DNA from: a virus
DNA: 23,960 nt
Virus record (IMG/VR): IMGVR_UViG_3300027749_003140
Coordinates: 1-23,960 of that record
Strand: one strand, 5' to 3'
The translations under genes were made by a program, and so were the position numbers. Below, in pieces: positions 4,454 to 23,769 of the stretch. Numbering within the stretch: position 1 is the stretch's first letter; each line of letters opens with the position of its first letter. The notes beneath the pieces were generated by a model that worked only from the letters and a program-made list of their open reading frames with translations, made no database searches and was not told where the DNA came from.

Positions 4454-4738
4454 ATGAAAAAGATTATTTTATCAATGCTACTGATAGTTGTAGCAGGAAC
4501 AGCCAGTGCTCAGTGGCGTCATCATGGCCACGGTCCGACAGTTATATATAGAGACAGCAACTGGGCTGCTCCGTTAATCCTAGGCGGTATTGTTGGCGCC
4601 GTTATTGCAAATCAACAACAATCTGTCATTGTTCAACAGCCGCCAGTGTATGTACAACGACAAACTGTGTGTACAGAATGGAAAGAGATTCAATATCCCG
4701 ATGGACAAGTCTATCGTGAAAGGACTTGTACACAATAA
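4454..4738 (+). CDS. Small secreted protein, function unknown
   Basis: A 94-aa protein with a clear signal peptide (MKKIILSMLLIVVAGTASA, cleavage before QW). The mature part starts with a His-rich patch (WRHHGHG), then a hydrophobic Gly-rich segment (APLILGGIVGAVIA, about residues 39-52) that could insert in a membrane, a Gln/Val/Pro-rich stretch, and a Cys-containing end (CTEWKEIQYPDGQ...CTQ) resembling small envelope proteins of proteobacteria. It has a GGAG ribosome site. Its stop overlaps the iscU start as TAATG, so the two are translationally coupled even though one product is exported and the other cytoplasmic. Confidence 0.7.
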   Translation: MKKIILSMLLIVVAGTASAQWRHHGHGPTVIYRDSNWAAPLILGGIVGAVIANQQQSVIVQQPPVYVQRQTVCTEWKEIQYPDGQVYRERTCTQ

Positions 4739-5124
4739 TGGCTTACTCTGAAAAAGTTGTGGATCACTATGAAAATCCCAGGAATGTCGGATCTTTTGAC
4801 AAGAGTGATACTGATATTGGTACTGGTATGGTCGGCGCACCTGCTTGCGGCGATGTAATGAAACTGCAAATTAAAGTAGAAGATGGAATTATTACCGATG
4901 CGAAATTTAAAACGTATGGCTGCGGGTCGGCGATTGCAAGCAGTTCTCTTATTACAGAATGGGTCAAAGGTAAAACACTTGACCAAGCAGGCAGCATTAA
5001 GAATAGTGAGATTGCAGAAGAACTTGCGTTACCTCCGGTCAAAATACATTGTAGCATATTGGCCGAGGATGCCATTAAAGCCGCAGTAGCTGACTACAGG
5101 TCTAAACATGATATCTATAACTGA
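4738..5124 (+). CDS. iscU: Iron-sulfur cluster scaffold protein IscU
   Basis: A 128-aa full-length IscU, the scaffold on which 2Fe-2S clusters are built. ATG 4738 is chosen because [20 protein letters not shown] is the standard bacterial N-terminus; an upstream in-frame ATG at 4726 would add four residues. All functional residues are visible: Cys and Asp of [15 protein letters not shown], Cys of [12 protein letters not shown], the LPPVK loop read by HscA, and the [12 protein letters not shown] Cys/His pair. The sequence is nearly that of a proteobacterial host protein, which suggests recent capture. It overlaps iscA by 17 bases. No IscS, HscA or ferredoxin gene is seen in the window, so host partners are needed; the phage DnaK might also interact. 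Confidence 0.95.
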
Positions 5125-5428
5125 AAAGGCCGCACTTAAAGTACAACAGGTTATTATTCGAAGAGGCAAGGGCCAGGGAATCCGCCTTGGTGTTAGAACC
5201 ACAGGATGTAGTGGACTTGCTTATGTATTAGAGTATGTGGACACACCAACAGTCGACGACATATGTTACGATTGCAGAGATTGTAAAATATTTGTTGATC
5301 CAAAAAGTCGTGTGTATCTACAAGGATTAGAAATAGACTATGTGCGCAACGGTCTTAATGAAGGATTTGAATTTAATAATCCTAATTCCAAAGGCGAGTG
5401 CGGATGTGGTGAAAGTTTTAGAGTATGA
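5108..5428 (+). CDS. iscA: A-type iron-sulfur carrier protein IscA
   Basis: A 106-aa A-type carrier. The three conserved cysteines are present: [13 protein letters not shown] and the C-terminal ECGCGESF. The N-terminus [15 protein letters not shown] and the [13 protein letters not shown] segment are typical of IscA/HesB proteins, which deliver iron or clusters to target enzymes. An extra pair of cysteines (YDCRDC, about residues 56-61) is not usual. It starts inside iscU and ends in ATGA with the next gene, giving a three-gene coupled set. ErpA or SufA would be alternatives, but linkage to iscU favours IscA. Confidence 0.9.
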
Positions 5429-12046: not shown

Positions 12047-12053
12047 ATAAATA
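12047..12053 (+). promoter_or_regulatory. ATAAATA late promoter of dnaK
   Basis: ATAAATA immediately after the MazG stop. Expected start about 12059, exactly the first base of the first leader hairpin, giving a 71-base leader before dnaK. Confidence 0.6.
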
Positions 12054-12058
12054 AATTC

Positions 12059-12125
12059 ATACTAAAACGCCGTAAGGGTTTAGTATAGGACATGGTGTCC
12101 AACCAATCTTGCTTAATTAAGGAGA
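12059..12125 (+). promoter_or_regulatory. ROSE-like RNA thermometer candidate in dnaK leader
   Basis: Three stem-loops can be drawn. Stem 1 pairs ATACTAAA (12059-12066) with TTTAGTAT (12079-12086). Stem 2 pairs GGACA (12088-12092) with TGTCC (12096-12100). Stem 3 pairs UCUUGCU (12107-12113) with AGGAGA (12120-12125), loop UAAUUA, with one unpaired G. Stem 3 contains the Shine-Dalgarno and reproduces the ROSE element rule in which UYGCU pairs imperfectly with AGGA around a bulged G. The hsp20 leader carries the same stem. No measured temperature response is known; this is a structural inference. Confidence 0.6.
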
Positions 12126-12129
12126 AAAT

Positions 12130-14001
12130 ATGAGCAAAGTCATCGGTATCGATTTAGGTACAACAAATTCATGCGTAGCCATTATTGAAAATGGTGTTGC
12201 AAAAATCATCGAAAATTCAGAAGGCGCACGTACTACACCTAGTATTGTTGCATACGCTAATGACGAAATACTAGTAGGCGCAAGTGCAAAGCGTCAATCA
12301 GTAACAAATCCCAAAAACACAATCTACGCAAGTAAGCGACTAATTGGACGTAAGTTTAAAGAAGAAGCAGTTCAAAAAGATATCGATCTTATGCCCTATG
12401 AAATTATGGAAGCTAAGAACGGTGATGCATGGGTCCGTGCTAACGATCAAGAATTAGCACCGCCACAAATTTCAGCAGAAGTTCTTCGCAAGATGAAAAA
12501 GACTGCTGAGGACTATTTAGGTGCTACAGTAACACAGGCTGTTATCACAGTACCAGCGTACTTTAATGACAGTCAACGTCAAGCAACTAAGGATGCTGGA
12601 CAAATTGCTGGATTAGAAGTATTGCGTATTATTAACGAGCCCACTGCGGCAGCACTGGCATATGGTGTTGACAAAGCTGACAAGCGTGATCGTAAGATTG
12701 CAGTGTACGATTTAGGTGGTGGTACATTTGACGTATCTATTATTGAAATCGCAGATGTTGATGGTGACAAACAAATTGAAGTGTTGAGCACAAATGGCGA
12801 TACATTCTTAGGTGGTGAAGACTTTGACCAACGTATTATGGATTACTTGGTTGACGAGTTTAAGAAAGAAAATGCAGTTGACCTTAAGAAAGACATGCTG
12901 GCGTTACAACGTTTGAAAGAAGCCGCAGAAAAAGCTAAGATTGAATTATCAAGTTCTGCTCAAACTTCAGTTAACTTACCATACATCACAGCTGACGCAA
13001 CAGGCCCCAAGCACATGAATGTTTCTATTACTCGTGCTAAGTTAGAAAGCCTAGTCGAAGAGTTAATACAACGTTCAATTGAACCCTGTAAGACTGCGAT
13101 GAAAGATGCAGGTGTTACGGGTGCGGATATTGATGAAGTTATCCTTGTTGGTGGTATGACTCGTATGCCCAAGGTGCAAGAAGTTGTTGAACAGTTGTTC
13201 GGCAAGGCCCCACGCCGCGATGTTAACCCAGATGAAGCAGTTGCCGCCGGCGCCGCAGTACAAGGATCAGTACTAGCAGGAGAACGCAGTGATGTGTTAT
13301 TGTTAGATGTTACTCCATTAAGTCTTGGGATTGAAACAATGGGTGGTATTATGGCCAAGTTGATTCAGAAGAATACAACTATTCCAACTAAAGCTAGCCA
13401 AACATTTAGTACTGCCGATGATAATCAACCAGCTGTAACGATTAAGGCATTCCAGGGTGAACGTGAACTAGTGCAACACAATAAATTACTAGGCGAGTTT
13501 AACTTAGAAGGTATTGCACCAGCTCGTCGTGGCACTCCCCAGATTGAAGTTACGCTTGACATTGATGCTAATGGCATCATGCACGTATCTGCTAAAGATA
13601 AGAATACTGGCAAAGAAAACAAGATTACTATTAAGTCTGACTCAGGTCTAACCAAAGAAGAAATCGAACGTATGGTACAAGATGCTGAAGCTAATGCCGA
13701 ATCAGATCAAAAGGCACGGGGATTGATTGAAGCACGTAATACAGCAGAAGCACAAATTCACAGTATTCGCAAGGATATGGAAGAAGTAACAGCTGAATTA
13801 TTGCAAGAGGTTAAAGACAAAGTTGACGAAGCTATTAAGGCAGTTAACGATGCAGTAGTAGCCGAAGATAAAGATGCTATTATACAAAAGCTCAGTGACT
13901 TGAGTGTAGCAAGCCAACCAGTCATTGAGGCTAAGAACAAACGCGACGAGGCCAAAAAGAATGAGACTCCAGTAGACGCAGAGTTTACTGAAGTAATTTA
14001 A
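12130..14001 (+). CDS. dnaK: Hsp70 chaperone DnaK
   Basis: A 623-aa complete DnaK (E. coli 638). The ATPase domain shows [12 protein letters not shown] (residues 6-17), [36 protein letters not shown] (193-204) and [13 protein letters not shown]; the linker [14 protein letters not shown] leads to the substrate-binding domain, and the helical lid ends DAEFTEVI, close to the bacterial DAEFEEVK tail. It folds or disaggregates client proteins in an ATP cycle that needs DnaJ and GrpE, neither of which is seen here, so host co-chaperones are presumed. Sequence looks proteobacterial. AAGGAG precedes the ATG inside a possible RNA thermometer. hsp20 follows with a matching leader. Confidence 0.97.
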
Positions 14002-14013
14002 CACACAGACACA

Positions 14014-14020
14014 ATAAATA
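14014..14020 (+). promoter_or_regulatory. ATAAATA late promoter of hsp20
   Basis: ATAAATA 12 bases after the dnaK stop. Expected start about 14026, a few bases before the GC-rich leader hairpin. Confidence 0.55.
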
Positions 14021-14027
14021 CACAGTG

Positions 14028-14073
14028 GGGTGCTCGGGTGAGGCCCTGCTTATTTCTTGCTTAATAAAGGAGA
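14028..14073 (+). promoter_or_regulatory. ROSE-like RNA thermometer candidate in hsp20 leader
   Basis: A GC-rich hairpin (GGG 14028-14030 with CCC 14044-14046, and CUC 14033-14035 with GAG 14040-14042, loop GGGU) is followed by the Shine-Dalgarno stem: UCUUGCU (14055-14061) pairs with AGGAGA (14068-14073), loop UAAUAA, one bulged G. The segment from TCTTGCTTAAT to AAGGAGAA is the same as in the dnaK leader except for one base in the loop. ROSE elements are best known from hsp20 genes of proteobacteria. Confidence 0.62.
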
Positions 14074-14078
14074 ACATT

Positions 14079-14525
14079 ATGAACACAACATTAAGCCGCA
14101 TTGATACTACCGCACTAGCTCAACTGAGTAGGGCACTTGTGGGATTTGACCGTATGTTTGATACTTACGAATCTAGATTCGCTAGTCAGACATCAAACTA
14201 TCCTCCACACAATATTTTTAAGTATGACGAATACCACTACGCTATTGAAATGGCAGTGGCCGGATTTAAGAAGTCTGAAATCGCAGTAGAAGTTGAGAAT
14301 GATCAACTGACCATCCGCGGCGAAATACAGTCTGCAACTGATCCTAGTCGTCAATATATACACAGAGGACTGAGCAGTCGAGATTTTGAAAGGCGCATTG
14401 GCCTTACTGAGCATATGATTGTTAAAGGTGCCGAAATTCAAGACGGTATATTAACAATTAATATTGAACTTGAACTTCCCGAGGAAAAGAAGCCAAGGGT
14501 AGTTGACATTGTAGAGATTAAGTAA
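14079..14525 (+). CDS. Small heat shock protein Hsp20 (IbpA-like)
   Basis: A 148-aa alpha-crystallin protein. ATG 14079 is chosen because AAGGAG lies six bases upstream; the longer frame from 14025 lies in the structured leader. The N-terminal arm (FDRMFDTYESRF, NYPPHNIFKYDE) is IbpA-like, the core runs through YAIEMAVAGFKKSEIAVEV, LTIRGE, HRGLSSRDFERRI and DGILTINIELELPEE, and the tail VVDIVEIK holds an IxI-like motif for oligomer contacts. It holds unfolded proteins for the Hsp70 system; the adjacent dnaK would complete that path. Hsp20 is common in T4-like cyanophages, but the shared thermometer-like leader with dnaK is unusual. Its 3' end contains a consensus promoter. Confidence 0.93.
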   Translation: MNTTLSRIDTTALAQLSRALVGFDRMFDTYESRFASQTSNYPPHNIFKYDEYHYAIEMAVAGFKKSEIAVEVENDQLTIRGEIQSATDPSRQYIHRGLSSRDFERRIGLTEHMIVKGAEIQDGILTINIELELPEEKKPRVVDIVEIK

Positions 14526-14553: not shown

Positions 14554-14573
14554 AATACTATATGGAGAATACT

Positions 14574-14876
14574 ATGAGCACAACAGACGTAAAACTTGAT
14601 GAAAAGATCAAACAAAAAATTGAAGAACCGCATCGTTGGAAGGTTATTCTATTAAATGATGATCACACTCCAATAGACTTTGTAGTCGGTATATTAACAG
14701 AGATTTTTAAACATAGCCAAGAAACAGCCAAAGAAATCACAATTCAGATACATACTGAAGGTAGTGGAGTCGCCGGTGTATACAATTTTGAAATTGCTGA
14801 GGTAAAAGCAGTTGAAGCAACTAATTTAGCTCGAGGTAACGGATTTCCACTCCAGATTAAAATGGAAGAAGAATGA
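14574..14876 (+). CDS. clpS: ClpS adaptor (N-degron recognition)
   Basis: A 100-aa ClpS homologue. ATG 14574 has GGAG eight bases upstream; 14562 is an in-frame alternative. A flexible N-terminal tail is followed by the core HRWKVILLNDDHTPIDFVVGI, with the NDD residues that hold the N-terminal amino group, IQIHTEGSG with the conserved His, and GVYNFEIAEVKA. In bacteria ClpS hands proteins with Leu, Phe, Tyr or Trp N-termini to ClpAP. A phage copy could steer host ClpAP; no ClpA or ClpP is present here. It overlaps heme oxygenase by ATGA, so all three genes to 16097 are coupled. Confidence 0.92.
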   Translation: MSTTDVKLDEKIKQKIEEPHRWKVILLNDDHTPIDFVVGILTEIFKHSQETAKEITIQIHTEGSGVAGVYNFEIAEVKAVEATNLARGNGFPLQIKMEEE

Positions 14877-18831: not shown

Positions 18832-20118
18832 ATGAGCTTTAATTTAAAATCATTTCTCTCTAGTCCCTGGACCATTTTAGGGTCAATCATAATTGGAGTG
18901 TTGGCAGGAGTATATGCACCTGCGGCCAGCATGAACTTTGAAAGTGTTGGAGGGATTTACATCAGCTTGCTTAAAGTGGTTGTGATACCTTTCTTGTTAG
19001 CTACTATTTTGGTTGGTGTTATCAGTCTACTGCAAAAAGAAGGCAGTGCCTCAATGATACGCAAAATTATTATTGGCTTTGTTGCCAGTATGTTCCTTGC
19101 GGCAGTTATTGGTGTTGGCACTGTTGCACTGACTGGCAGCGAAATGACTCCTGCAAAACAAGCACAACTTGGTGCAATTGTCAACGACAAAGAATCTGGC
19201 AGTGATCTTAATATCACGCTAAAAGAACCAATGCCTGTTACGCCGCACGTTGATCCAATGCAGATGGCGCAGAAGTTTATTCCAGAAAATATCTTTAACA
19301 CACTGGCTGCTGGTGAAAGTTTGAAAATTGTTATCTTCTGTTTGATATTTGGTGTTGCTCTGGGCAATATCAAAAGTACAGGTCAAGAAATGCTGGTTGA
19401 TGTATTAAAAAGTGTTCAGCAGGCCAGTATCAGTATTTTCAAGTTCTTAAACTACTTTCTACCGTTTGCATTGTTAGCAATGATCAGTAGTCAGGTTGGT
19501 AAAGTTGGTGTTGGCATTTTCTTGACCATGGTTGAATTTATCATGCAACAGGCTATCGGTGGATTACTGGTTATCATCGCCGGTACTATTGTTATTTGGC
19601 AACGTTCAGGGCTCAGCCTAATGACTGTTATTAAAGAAACTAAAGAAACGCTGATTGTTGCTGTTAGTTCACGTAGCAGTTTAGCCTGTATTCCATACGC
19701 ACAAGAAGCACTGCACAAATTAAAATTTGATAGAAATGGTGTAGAGCTAACTGTGCCACTAAGTTTCACAGTTAACCGCATCGGAAGTATTGTTTATTAC
19801 GCAATTGCCACAGTGTTTATTGCCAACATATACGGTGCACCTATGGGAGTAACTGGTTTGTTGGTTGTGTTATTTGGTAGTATCTTAGCTGGGTTAGCGT
19901 CAGCAGGTACAACAGGTATTCTCACAGTTGCCACTGTGGCAGTTGTTTGTGACTTGTTAAAACTTCCAAGCGAAGCTGTATTAGTATTGTTAATCGCTGT
20001 TGATCCACTAATGGATATGATTCGTACTGCAAGCCATGTACACGGGAATGTAGCAGTGACAGCATTCGTATGTGACAAGGAAGTAGACGATGGACAAACT
20101 GAAAGAGCTACTGCTTGA
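18832..20118 (+). CDS. SDF-family (glutamate/dicarboxylate) symporter with altered cation sites
   Basis: A 428-aa membrane transporter of the DAACS/SDF family. Hairpin HP1 has R281-S-S-LACIP, TM7 has NRIGS (315-319) where the family has NMDGT, HP2 has LASAGTTG, and TM8 has D391, D395, R398, T399, then H402 and N406. Arg398 equals GltPh Arg397, which binds the side-chain carboxylate of aspartate, so an acidic substrate is plausible. Residues equal to GltPh Asp312 and Asp405, both sodium ligands, are Ile317 and Asn406, and Asn401 is His. Coupling to sodium is therefore doubtful. AGGAAA ribosome site; overlaps the next gene by 29 bases. Confidence 0.9.
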   Translation: MSFNLKSFLSSPWTILGSIIIGVLAGVYAPAASMNFESVGGIYISLLKVVVIPFLLATILVGVISLLQKEGSASMIRKIIIGFVASMFLAAVIGVGTVALTGSEMTPAKQAQLGAIVNDKESGSDLNITLKEPMPVTPHVDPMQMAQKFIPENIFNTLAAGESLKIVIFCLIFGVALGNIKSTGQEMLVDVLKSVQQASISIFKFLNYFLPFALLAMISSQVGKVGVGIFLTMVEFIMQQAIGGLLVIIAGTIVIWQRSGLSLMTVIKETKETLIVAVSSRSSLACIPYAQEALHKLKFDRNGVELTVPLSFTVNRIGSIVYYAIATVFIANIYGAPMGVTGLLVVLFGSILAGLASAGTTGILTVATVAVVCDLLKLPSEAVLVLLIAVDPLMDMIRTASHVHGNVAVTAFVCDKEVDDGQTERATA

Positions 20119-20695: not shown

Positions 20696-20754
20696 GACTC
20701 CCTAGCGTGATAGCTGTTGGTATTCTAATAATCATCATATTGGTGTTATTATGA
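20692..20754 (+). CDS. 20-aa hydrophobic membrane peptide
   Basis: The frame starts in ATGA with the upstream stop and ends in ATGA with the racemase start, filling the gap exactly. The peptide is MRLPSVIAVGILIIIILVLL: a basic start and one transmembrane helix. Double ATGA coupling in an otherwise unexplained 55-base gap supports a real gene. It could be a membrane micropeptide acting on the neighbouring transporter. Too short for family recognition. Confidence 0.6.
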   Translation: MRLPSVIAVGILIIIILVLL

Positions 20755-21455
20755 TCAAGCGACTTGGTGTACTGGGTGGAATGGGGCCTGCTGCTAGTGC
20801 TGAGTTTATGGTACGTTTGATTGCTCAGACTCCTGCAAAAACTGATCAAGACCATATCCCCACAATACTATGGAGCGACAACACAGTTCCGGACCGTAGC
20901 ACCAGTATGCGTAACGGTGACAACAAACCATTACCTTACCTGTTGCAGGGTATACAGGGATTAGTGTCGGCAGGTTGTAATCTAATTGTTATACCCTGCA
21001 ACACTGCACATCTTTGGTTCAATGAAATGGAAAAACAAGCATCGTGGCATGCAAGAATTGTACACATTGTTGACAGTGTCGCAGATGCACTACGAGATGT
21101 AAACGTAGTCAATTCTAAAATTGGAGTCATGGGCACACAGGCAACCGTTGAGTTGGGGTTGTATCAGTATCGTTTAAACAAACTAGGATGGGATTGTATT
21201 GTGCCTAGTAAAGAAGAAATGGATACACTGGTACAACCAGCAATTGATTTAATCAAGGCTAATCAAATTGACGCTGCACACCCAATGTTAATGACTGTTA
21301 TTCACAGTCTTATTGGCAGAGGAGCAACAGCAGTGGTACTGGGATGTACTGAAATACCACTGAGTGTGAGAGAAGACTCAGTACAGGATACACCAATAAT
21401 AAATAGCATTGACAGTTTGGTCAAGAGTGCTATAAAACAATTCAAAAGGAATTAA
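20751..21455 (+). CDS. Aspartate/glutamate racemase family protein
   Basis: A 234-aa cofactor-independent racemase of the Asp/Glu/hydantoin family. N-terminal GVLGGMGPAASAEFM is the phosphate/carboxylate loop typical of aspartate racemases; catalytic cysteines are C83 in IPCNTAH and C199 in VLGCTEIP, both present. Length fits the family (about 230). It would interconvert L- and D-aspartate or glutamate. The GGMGP...T motif favours aspartate or broad-specificity enzymes over MurI. In this cassette it lies behind an amino-acid-binding protein and an acidic-amino-acid-type transporter, suggesting one pathway. Start is coupled to the 20-aa peptide. Confidence 0.9.
   Translation: MIKRLGVLGGMGPAASAEFMVRLIAQTPAKTDQDHIPTILWSDNTVPDRSTSMRNGDNKPLPYLLQGIQGLVSAGCNLIVIPCNTAHLWFNEMEKQASWHARIVHIVDSVADALRDVNVVNSKIGVMGTQATVELGLYQYRLNKLGWDCIVPSKEEMDTLVQPAIDLIKANQIDAAHPMLMTVIHSLIGRGATAVVLGCTEIPLSVREDSVQDTPIINSIDSLVKSAIKQFKRN
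21409..21436 (+). promoter_or_regulatory. Possible sigma-70 promoter, TTGACA-16-TATAAA
   Basis: TTGACA at 21409-21414 and TATAAA at 21431-21436 in the 3' end of the racemase gene, spacer 16. Expected start about 21443, before the AAAGGA site of the small secreted protein. An AATAAATA motif lies at 21398-21405. Coding constraint makes this uncertain. Confidence 0.4.
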
Positions 21456-22476: not shown

Positions 22477-23769
22477 ATGCGTCTTAAAATTTTATTGCCA
22501 GCGTTGATGTTGGTACTATCAAGCACCACTGTCTTATCACAGACATTAATCAATCAGGGTACCTACGACTCAAAAAGCCTGGTTGACACTAATAGTACCA
22601 CTACCAGCACAAGTACTATTAACACCAACAATGTTAATAGTGGCACTGTGACTACTAACAACAATACTGCATTAAGTGGCGGTACAACCAACACTAACAA
22701 CAACATTAATGTTAATAGTGGCACACTGACCAACAACAATAACAATAATAATGTTATGAGCGGGTCTGTGACCTATACAAATAACAATAACAACAACAAC
22801 GTTAATAGTGGTACACAGACATTTAATAATAACAATGTCAACACAGGTACAATGACTAATAACAACAACAATGTCAATACCAGCACAAGTGCAAGTACAA
22901 GCACTAATGTTAATCAAAATAACAATGTCAATACTGGTACAATGACTTACAATAATAACAATGTTAGTACCAGTACGAACAACAACAATAATGTTAATAC
23001 TAGTACCAGTGATAACACCAATAGAAATATCAACACAGGTGATATGACCAATCGTAATATCAACACCAGTACAAGTACCAGTGCTAATACCAACAATAAC
23101 ATTAATACTGGTGATATGACTAACCGTAATATTAACAATAGTACATCTACATCTAACAATACTAATAATAATATCAACAGTGGTACAATGACTAACATTA
23201 ACCAAAATGTGCAAAGTGGTAGTATGACCAACAACAATAACAATACAAACACTAGTACAAGCAACAACGTTAATCAGAACGCCAATATTAATCAAAACGT
23301 CAACAGTGGTGATATGACTAACCGTAATATCAACACCACTGAGATTACTCAACGTGTTATTCAACCTCCTCCTACAGCAGTTGCTCCAGCAATGATGAGT
23401 GGTGGTAATACTGACTTATGTAGCACAGGCACAAGTGGAAGTGTACAAACACAAATCTTTGGTGTAAGCGGTGGCGGCACAGTTCGTGATATGAATTGTG
23501 AACGATTGAAACTATCTAAAACTTTATATGATATGGGTATGAAAGTGGCCGCAGTTGCTACCATGTGTCAAGACCGTCGTGTGTTTGATGCCATGTTGGC
23601 CGCCGGAACTCCTTGCCCTTATGACGGCAAGATTGGTCTACAAGCTAAAGCTGAGTGGGAAGCTAACTTGGATAAAATACCAAAACCTGACGAGGATAAA
23701 ATAGATGACACTTATAAGAAAGTGGGCTTCGGTGCTCTGCTTGGTGCTCTTGTGTTCAAACTATTCTAA
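22477..23769 (+). CDS. Secreted Asn-rich repeat protein
   Basis: A 430-aa exported protein. Signal peptide residues 1-21 (MRLKILLPALMLVLSSTTVL). Residues about 39-290 are almost only Asn, Thr, Ser, Gly, Val and Ile, with eleven copies of a [VI]x[ST]G[TSD]xT core (VNSGTLT, VNTGTMT, INTGDMT and others) separated by Asn runs and TSTS variants every 10-16 residues, a pattern that suits a beta-solenoid or amyloid-like rod. After a Pro linker comes a compact Cys domain (about 311-395; C315, C341, C364, C380; VQTQIFGVSGGGTVRDMNCE) that I recall from environmental phages, and a hydrophobic end GFGALLGALVFKLF. Location is periplasmic or outer surface. Function unknown. Confidence 0.8.
   Translation: MRLKILLPALMLVLSSTTVLSQTLINQGTYDSKSLVDTNSTTTSTSTINTNNVNSGTVTTNNNTALSGGTTNTNNNINVNSGTLTNNNNNNNVMSGSVTYTNNNNNNNVNSGTQTFNNNNVNTGTMTNNNNNVNTSTSASTSTNVNQNNNVNTGTMTYNNNNVSTSTNNNNNVNTSTSDNTNRNINTGDMTNRNINTSTSTSANTNNNINTGDMTNRNINNSTSTSNNTNNNINSGTMTNINQNVQSGSMTNNNNNTNTSTSNNVNQNANINQNVNSGDMTNRNINTTEITQRVIQPPPTAVAPAMMSGGNTDLCSTGTSGSVQTQIFGVSGGGTVRDMNCERLKLSKTLYDMGMKVAAVATMCQDRRVFDAMLAAGTPCPYDGKIGLQAKAEWEANLDKIPKPDEDKIDDTYKKVGFGALLGALVFKLF
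22591..23340 (+). repeat. Low-complexity Asn-codon repeat region
   Basis: AAC/AAT-rich tandem degenerate repeats with recurring GTTAATAGTGG, GTCAATACTGG and GATATGACTAACCGTAATAT blocks. Both Asn codons are mixed, so selection acts on the protein rather than on exact DNA slippage. The complementary strand shows long false frames here. Confidence 0.85.

Follow-up and report, generated by a model that had tools for sequence, protein, structure and literature searches.

The locus studied here raises the question of why a virus should place the same RNA leader before two different heat-shock chaperone genes, and what that leader responds to. The window, i.e. the whole stretch of 23,960 nucleotides that was analysed (positions 1-23,960 of the IMG/VR virus record IMGVR_UViG_3300027749_003140), encodes tail, ribonucleotide reductase, and endolysin genes together with dnaK, hsp20, and clpS, the latter three in this order (Table 1). 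A preliminary description had taken the two leaders for RNA thermometers of the ROSE type. The Hsp20 of the window, whose structure model has a pLDDT of 80, was mapped onto E. coli IbpA by alignment: its Tyr41, Ala61, and Arg101 correspond to IbpA Y34, A54, and R93, and IbpA numbering is used below. The ClpS adaptor gene (14562-14876) is host-like, as are the genes for an SDF dicarboxylate symporter (18832-20118), an Asp/Glu racemase (20751-21455), and, judged by eye, IscU- and IscA-like Fe-S assembly proteins (4726-5428). A further ORF of 430 aa (22477-23769) is Asn/Thr-rich and highly repetitive (e.g. NNNNVNTGTMT), with a signal-like start.

Both leaders indeed end in UCUUGCU, six nucleotides, and AGGAGA, and the pairing rule claimed for them, UUGCU with AGGA around a bulged G, is present in each copy of this Shine-Dalgarno (SD) hairpin as the succession C-G, U-A, U.G, bulged G, C-G, U-A. 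In the dnaK copy, a U114-A119 pair could lengthen the stem, leaving a 4-nt loop. The one or two stem-loops described farther upstream were also recovered, namely hairpins 1 and 2 before dnaK and hairpin 1 before hsp20, and both copies of hairpin 1 carry a bulged G flanked by one Y-G and one C-G pair. The block precedes no other gene of the window, where the exact pattern matches only twice and matches with three mismatches stay at chance level. The leaders had further been said to begin at a late-promoter motif; an ATAAATA does head each of them, but five further copies lie elsewhere in the window.

Table 1. Coordinates of the chaperone genes and their leader features in the window.
Feature	Position	Strand	Basis or detail
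dnaK (Hsp70, 623 aa)	12130-14001	+	Pfam HSP70, E 5e-255; ATG 12130
hsp20 (148 aa)	14079-14525	+	Pfam HSP20, E 4e-18; ATG 14079
dnaK late-promoter-like motif ATAAATA	12047-12053	+	sequence
dnaK hairpin 1	12059-12086	+	fold; bulged G 12069 between C-G pairs, unpaired A 12067
dnaK hairpin 2 (GGAC/GTCC)	12088-12100	+	optional in family
dnaK SD hairpin UCUU(G)CU...AGGAGA	12107-12125	+	exact sequence; model R1; bulged G 12111
hsp20 late-promoter-like motif ATAAATA	14014-14020	+	sequence
hsp20 hairpin 1	14024-14050	+	fold; bulged G 14032 between U.G and C-G
hsp20 SD hairpin UCUU(G)CU...AGGAGA	14055-14073	+	exact sequence; model R1; bulged G 14059

The element has a far wider distribution than could be seen from the window alone. 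Relatives of dnaK were drawn from viral contigs by similarity of the DnaK protein alone, which gave 59 distinct leaders. All 59 contain the SD hairpin (CTYRCT...AGGAG; 0 of 1180 shuffles), and hairpin 1 scores above 16 in 98% of them compared to 1.4% of the shuffles. We also ran four DNA-pattern scans of about 26 bases, without gene information, over 2.9 million viral contigs; the counts from three of these scans are samples. Among the matches listed, the TCTTGCTT scan gave 119 distinct sites (103 hsp20, 12 dnaK, 1 groES, 3 other), the TCTTACTT scan 127 sites (52 hsp20, 38 dnaK, 2 groES, 35 other), and the CTCGCTT scan 119 sites (106 hsp20, 1 dnaK, 12 other), whereas the 65 sites listed for CTCACTT included 9 dnaK, the remainder being mostly chance. 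The hairpin with a bulged G (G-type) was found, among the matches listed, almost exclusively at hsp20, dnaK, or groES. The restriction to heat-shock chaperone genes proposed from the window is thus supported there, and the family scans add groES to it.

Both hairpins also precede hsp20 in eleven annotated phages, most of them isolates: the cyanobacterial phages S-SM1, Bellamy, S-CAM1, Sf-FR1, and P-TIM68, the Pelagibacter phages HTVC115P and Mosig, Melnitz-3 (Methylophilales), Phosso and Atu_ph07 (rhizobia), and C48C1 (host not given). Hairpin 1 of HTVC115P is the largest departure from the motif among them. Many chaperone-carrying phages place the same two-hairpin, ROSE-related leader before those genes. 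In bacteria, where the wide scan covered the G-type, the element precedes hsp20 mainly in alphaproteobacteria and dnaK in two cases (Micavibrio L710 and L734); the A-type pattern was essentially absent from the 385 genomes sampled (class of one alphaproteobacterium). A record labelled 'Campylobacter phage A11a' (L292, MG065691, unverified) was not counted as a phage, since it carries an E. coli ibpA leader (ROSE_2, 100 bits) and looks like bacterial contamination.

Two side observations came from the same searches. Genes for small proteins (65-88 aa), helical and by eye similar to phasins but with no Pfam or PHROGs assignment, also have the element in front of them (L190:4207, L270:10544, L530, L547, L567, L598, and L646, the last at G003:205987) and may belong to the regulon as well. 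A separate set of viral hsp20 leaders (L087-L154, e.g. L094 and L104) reads GACCTGCCC...GGGGGGTC followed by TAGTTATCGTCTAAGGAGATA and has a different SD hairpin (UAUC-G-UC UAAG GAGAUA), seemingly also with a bulged G.

Covariation in homologous leaders, which the preliminary description had named as a check on its reading, came out in its favour for hairpin 1. As a MAFFT alignment of leaders of mixed geometry misplaced this hairpin, we used a more uniform set of 33 leaders of like geometry, chosen by a parser that requires pairs; the unbiased figure for hairpin 1 is therefore the 98% obtained above with the 59 dnaK leaders. Within the 33-leader set, 91.5% of cells pair, and 61 cells are changed on both sides against a shuffled mean of 17.8. 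Every one of these double changes falls in hairpin 1, whose covariation score is 0.448 compared to 0.197 for shuffled and at most 0.182 for slid alignments. The SD hairpin shows no covariation because the SD itself is fixed: its variation is confined to the anti-SD side (U.G to C-G), and some of its unpaired cells are mis-registered loops of 6.

A covariance model (R1) finds both leaders of the window, that of hsp20 at 14024-14075 with 38.1 bits (E 1.7e-7) and that of dnaK at 12086-12128 with 25.8 bits (E 4e-4). On whole viral records of 80-490 kb it gave 1 to 3 strong matches each, and those that were identified lie at dnaK, hsp20, and groES, plus one before an unassigned ORF of 88 aa. Seven annotated phage genomes yielded exactly one match each, at the hsp20 locus; the C48C1 leader was not recovered by R1.

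How closely the element corresponds to ROSE was judged by anatomy and by the Rfam models. The anti-SD U(U/C)GCU pairs with AGGA around a bulged G in the window, and the relatives keep Y-R-C, with R being G or A. Position before the start of a small heat-shock gene holds for the hsp20 copy, the dnaK copy lying outside the usual definition, and the further upstream stem-loop is the conserved, covarying hairpin 1. The Rfam ROSE models had been suggested as a check, and they gave no match in the window up to E 5; the dnaK leader scored 16 bits with ROSE_2 (E 0.39, cut-off 65) and the hsp20 leader matched no ROSE model. Some relatives match below the cut-off, the best phage one being Melnitz (ROSE_3, 34.1 bits, cut-off 43) and the others scoring lower or not at all. 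No phage leader tested reaches the Rfam ROSE cut-offs, and bacterial hsp20 leaders of the same kind fail to reach them too. Of the ROSE thermometer reading, the ROSE-type anatomy and the restriction to chaperones stand; the Rfam match does not, and folding does not support opening with temperature for the window (see below). We are highly confident that the leaders are structured translational control elements of ROSE type; the phage element is predicted to work like ROSE and is probably descended from it.

Across the relatives, ATAAATA lies 35-110 nt upstream of the start in 106 of 109 phage dnaK leaders and in none of 322 control stretches inside genes, and in hsp20 leaders it occurs in 92 of 221 (TATAAATA-type test for a T4-like late promoter, on sequence only). 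Hairpin 2 is present in 79 of the 109 dnaK leaders, with compensatory changes among its stems (GGGC/GCCC, GAGC/GCTC, GGAC/GTCC). DnaK or the promoter as the cause of the shared leader was considered and rejected, because hsp20 leaders without ATAAATA carry the element as well.

The preliminary description had expected the SD to open as temperature rises. Taken in isolation, the SD hairpin has a computed Tm of 46.8 °C (dnaK) and 48.6 °C (hsp20) in the window, with family medians of 43-51 °C; the same calculation gives 68.2 °C for E. coli ibpA. When the leaders were folded, the anti-SD of the window dnaK leader preferred a partner at the beginning of the coding sequence, so that the SD was predicted to be 97-100% unpaired throughout 10-50 °C; opening of the window hsp20 SD showed no rise with temperature. 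The family mean does rise modestly, e.g. from 0.32 to 0.51 between 5 and 45 °C for hsp20 leaders with bulged A (A-type). Temperature-dependent opening is thus not supported for the window and is only modest across the family, and since the energy model is without the non-canonical ROSE pairs, folding neither supports a thermometer nor argues decisively against one. The weak hairpin fits either a ligand-dependent element or one tuned to cool water, and we see the chances for and against a relevant thermal response as about evenly balanced. In the window, pairing of the dnaK anti-SD with the gene start (AUGAGCAAAG, within 12107-12140) can hide the region of the start codon, not the SD.

A clue that the preliminary description missed is the coupling between the bulged purines. 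Of 338 leaders, 208 carry G in both hairpin 1 and the SD hairpin (G/G) and 109 carry A in both (A/A); the two letters are identical in about 317 of 322 leaders, visual inspection leaving approximately 5 true mismatches. Ahead of its bulge, hairpin 1 has either a U.G (196) or a C-G pair (102), which matches the choice made in the SD hairpin, so that both hairpins carry Y-R-C opposite G-G. The dnaK and hsp20 leaders within one phage have the same bulge letter in 68 of 69 cases, and the groES leader, where present, agrees with the other leaders of its phage. At least 4 switches of the letter fall on supported branches of the DnaK tree, each accompanied by the corresponding change in hairpin 1; the Hsp20 trees give 2 to 5 independent bulge switches. 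With so few independent switches, sign tests on independent pairs did not reach significance. Pagel's test of hairpin 1 versus SD hairpin gave a likelihood ratio of 41.2.

The letter is also tracked by the Hsp20 protein. Only one of 137 columns of the Hsp20 alignment splits the types almost perfectly, and it is the position of IbpA A54, which lies in the alpha-crystallin core and precedes a conserved glycine. The residue is Ala for 144 of 145 G/G leaders and Thr for 52 of 54 A/A leaders. In mixed leaders (G in hairpin 1, A in the SD hairpin) it is Ala, in one clade, or Ser, and Ser is also found in L278, which combines a G-type dnaK SD with an A-type hsp20 leader; the exceptions to the letter code are L278, L332, and the L324 clade. 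In Pagel's test against the SD letter, residue 54 ranked first of the 15 columns tested with a likelihood ratio of 36.2, a statistic inflated by ancestry, since the other columns also reached 22-33. As a prediction on fresh data, Thr54 was found in 4 of 4 new A-type (CTCACTT) dnaK phages with a readable hsp20, and fresh G-type Hsp20s had Ala54 in 103 of 104 cases among the matches listed. Running across hairpins, genes, and one Hsp20 residue, the coupling suggests that the leader may have a protein ligand.

A candidate for this ligand is offered by E. coli IbpA, which binds its own 5' UTR and represses translation, with R93 as the key residue and R97, K98, and an aromatic residue at 34 also needed (PMC10474464). 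Of 212 phage Hsp20s, 184 have R and 27 have K at position 93, Y or F occupies position 34 in 210, and R or K occupies position 97 in 196; the window Hsp20 keeps both the arginine (R101) and the tyrosine (Y41). A basic residue at position 98 is not kept in the phage proteins (of the 212, 29 have K, 8 have R, and most have T, E, or S), although the window protein has R there by sequence (DFERR). The 27 proteins with Lys93 count against Hsp20 as the ligand, given that R93K abolishes suppression by E. coli IbpA, and so do the loss of K98, the exceptions to the letter code, and the place of residue 54 in the alpha-crystallin core. From the retained RNA-binding residues of IbpA together with the tracking of residue 54, we infer that the phage Hsp20 may be the ligand of the leader, for which the case is in our judgement slightly stronger than the case against.

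Other explanations have to be weighed against these data. In a pure RNA thermometer, the SD hairpin would melt without any protein, and hairpin 1 would aid folding or shield the 5' end of the mRNA. The anatomy equals that of the short two-hairpin Pseudomonas ROSE-like element, in which hairpin II is the thermosensor and alone confers thermoregulation and the role of the 5' hairpins is only partly understood (PMC3669281). The weakness of the isolated SD hairpins (window Tm 47-49 °C, E. coli ibpA 68 °C) and the family-wide increase in mean SD opening point the same way. However, the window dnaK SD is predicted to be open from 10 to 50 °C and the opening of the hsp20 SD does not increase with temperature, and melting does not account for the repetition of the bulge motif in hairpin 1, for the joint switching of the two purines, or for their link with an Hsp20 residue. 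We consider a thermometer of this kind unlikely.

The matching letters within single leaders could instead reflect direct contact of the two bulges (homopurine G-G or A-A) without a ligand, but such contact leaves both the letter shared by the dnaK, hsp20, and groES leaders of one phage and the link with residue 54 unexplained, except by shared descent, and we regard it as very improbable. A repeated pair of bulged hairpins is a typical protein target, and the element might serve as the operator of a protein other than Hsp20, i.e. a RegA-like phage repressor, another phage factor, or a host factor; regA does lie directly upstream of hsp20 in four cyanophages (L287, L291, L293, and L294). On the other hand, we know of no need of T4 RegA for such hairpins, and neither the tracking of residue 54 by the bulge letter nor the co-occurrence of the element with Hsp20 in very different phages would be expected of another protein, which leaves this explanation improbable in our estimate.

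We favour Hsp20-mediated feedback as the control of the phage chaperone regulon, possibly joined by heat melting as a second input, and hold this reading, drawn from comparison of sequences, to be somewhat likelier than not to be correct. The element would then be a ROSE-type translational operator common to hsp20, dnaK, and, in relatives, groES. In the mechanism that we infer, from the transcript start and the repression to Hsp20 as the ligand and its titration as the signal, the late transcript would start just upstream of the stable hairpin 1, and the weak second hairpin, bearing the same bulged-purine motif, would cover the SD. The phage's own IbpA-like Hsp20 would bind both bulged hairpins and thereby keep the SD hairpin shut. 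Unfolded or aggregating proteins, whether heat or massive late protein synthesis gives rise to them, would titrate Hsp20 away, upon which the weak hairpin would open and Hsp20, DnaK, and GroES would be made; melting by heat may be an added input. The most specific version, in which Hsp20 would be a sequence-specific RNA-binding repressor that reads both bulges (Ala54 for G, Thr54 for A), senses aggregation, and controls the hsp20/dnaK/groES regulon, is put forward tentatively, as its chances fall a little short of even.

Several known systems resemble the phage element in part. The Pseudomonas ibpA ROSE (PMC3669281) has a hairpin I followed by a U(U/C)GCU/AGGAG SD hairpin just before the hsp20 start, and the Rfam ROSE_2 and ROSE_3 consensus structures (RF01832, RF02523) show these two hairpins as well, each bearing a bulged G; unlike these, the phage element also stands before dnaK and groES, and its bulge may be A in both hairpins. 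E. coli ibpA (PMC10474464) likewise has a ROSE-type hsp20 leader, and most phage Hsp20s retain both the arginine that binds RNA and an aromatic side chain at 34, but the phage set comprises several chaperones and a possible letter code (Ala54-G, Thr54-A) seen only in phages here. Alphaproteobacterial leaders (e.g. L661 and L710) carry the same two-hairpin element before hsp20 and rarely before dnaK, in cellular genomes. Thermosensing by a phage as such is already known, and the statement that temperature control of genes by a virus would be unprecedented was too strong: in the lambda cIII leader (PMC4166951), as proposed for the phage element, an mRNA leader structure controls initiation of translation. 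The cIII thermosensor, however, switches between two alternative folds in the opposite sense (the product being made at lower temperature) and is neither ROSE nor linked to a chaperone. In the literature searched, we found no description of ROSE in phages or before dnaK or groES, and the cyanophage small heat-shock protein literature searched makes no mention of leader structure.

The role of the first hairpin in ROSE elements is an open question, to which the coupling offers a direct and testable answer: if Hsp20 does read the bulges of both hairpins, the presence of a first hairpin in ROSE elements would be accounted for too. Residue 54 and the bulge may form a letter by which a small heat-shock protein recognises RNA, and cultured phages that carry the element (e.g. 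Bellamy, S-SM1, and Melnitz) provide test systems. If the favoured reading is true, the ROSE-type leader would rank among the common elements of translational control in environmental phages, and viruses would run several chaperone genes as one feedback-controlled set.
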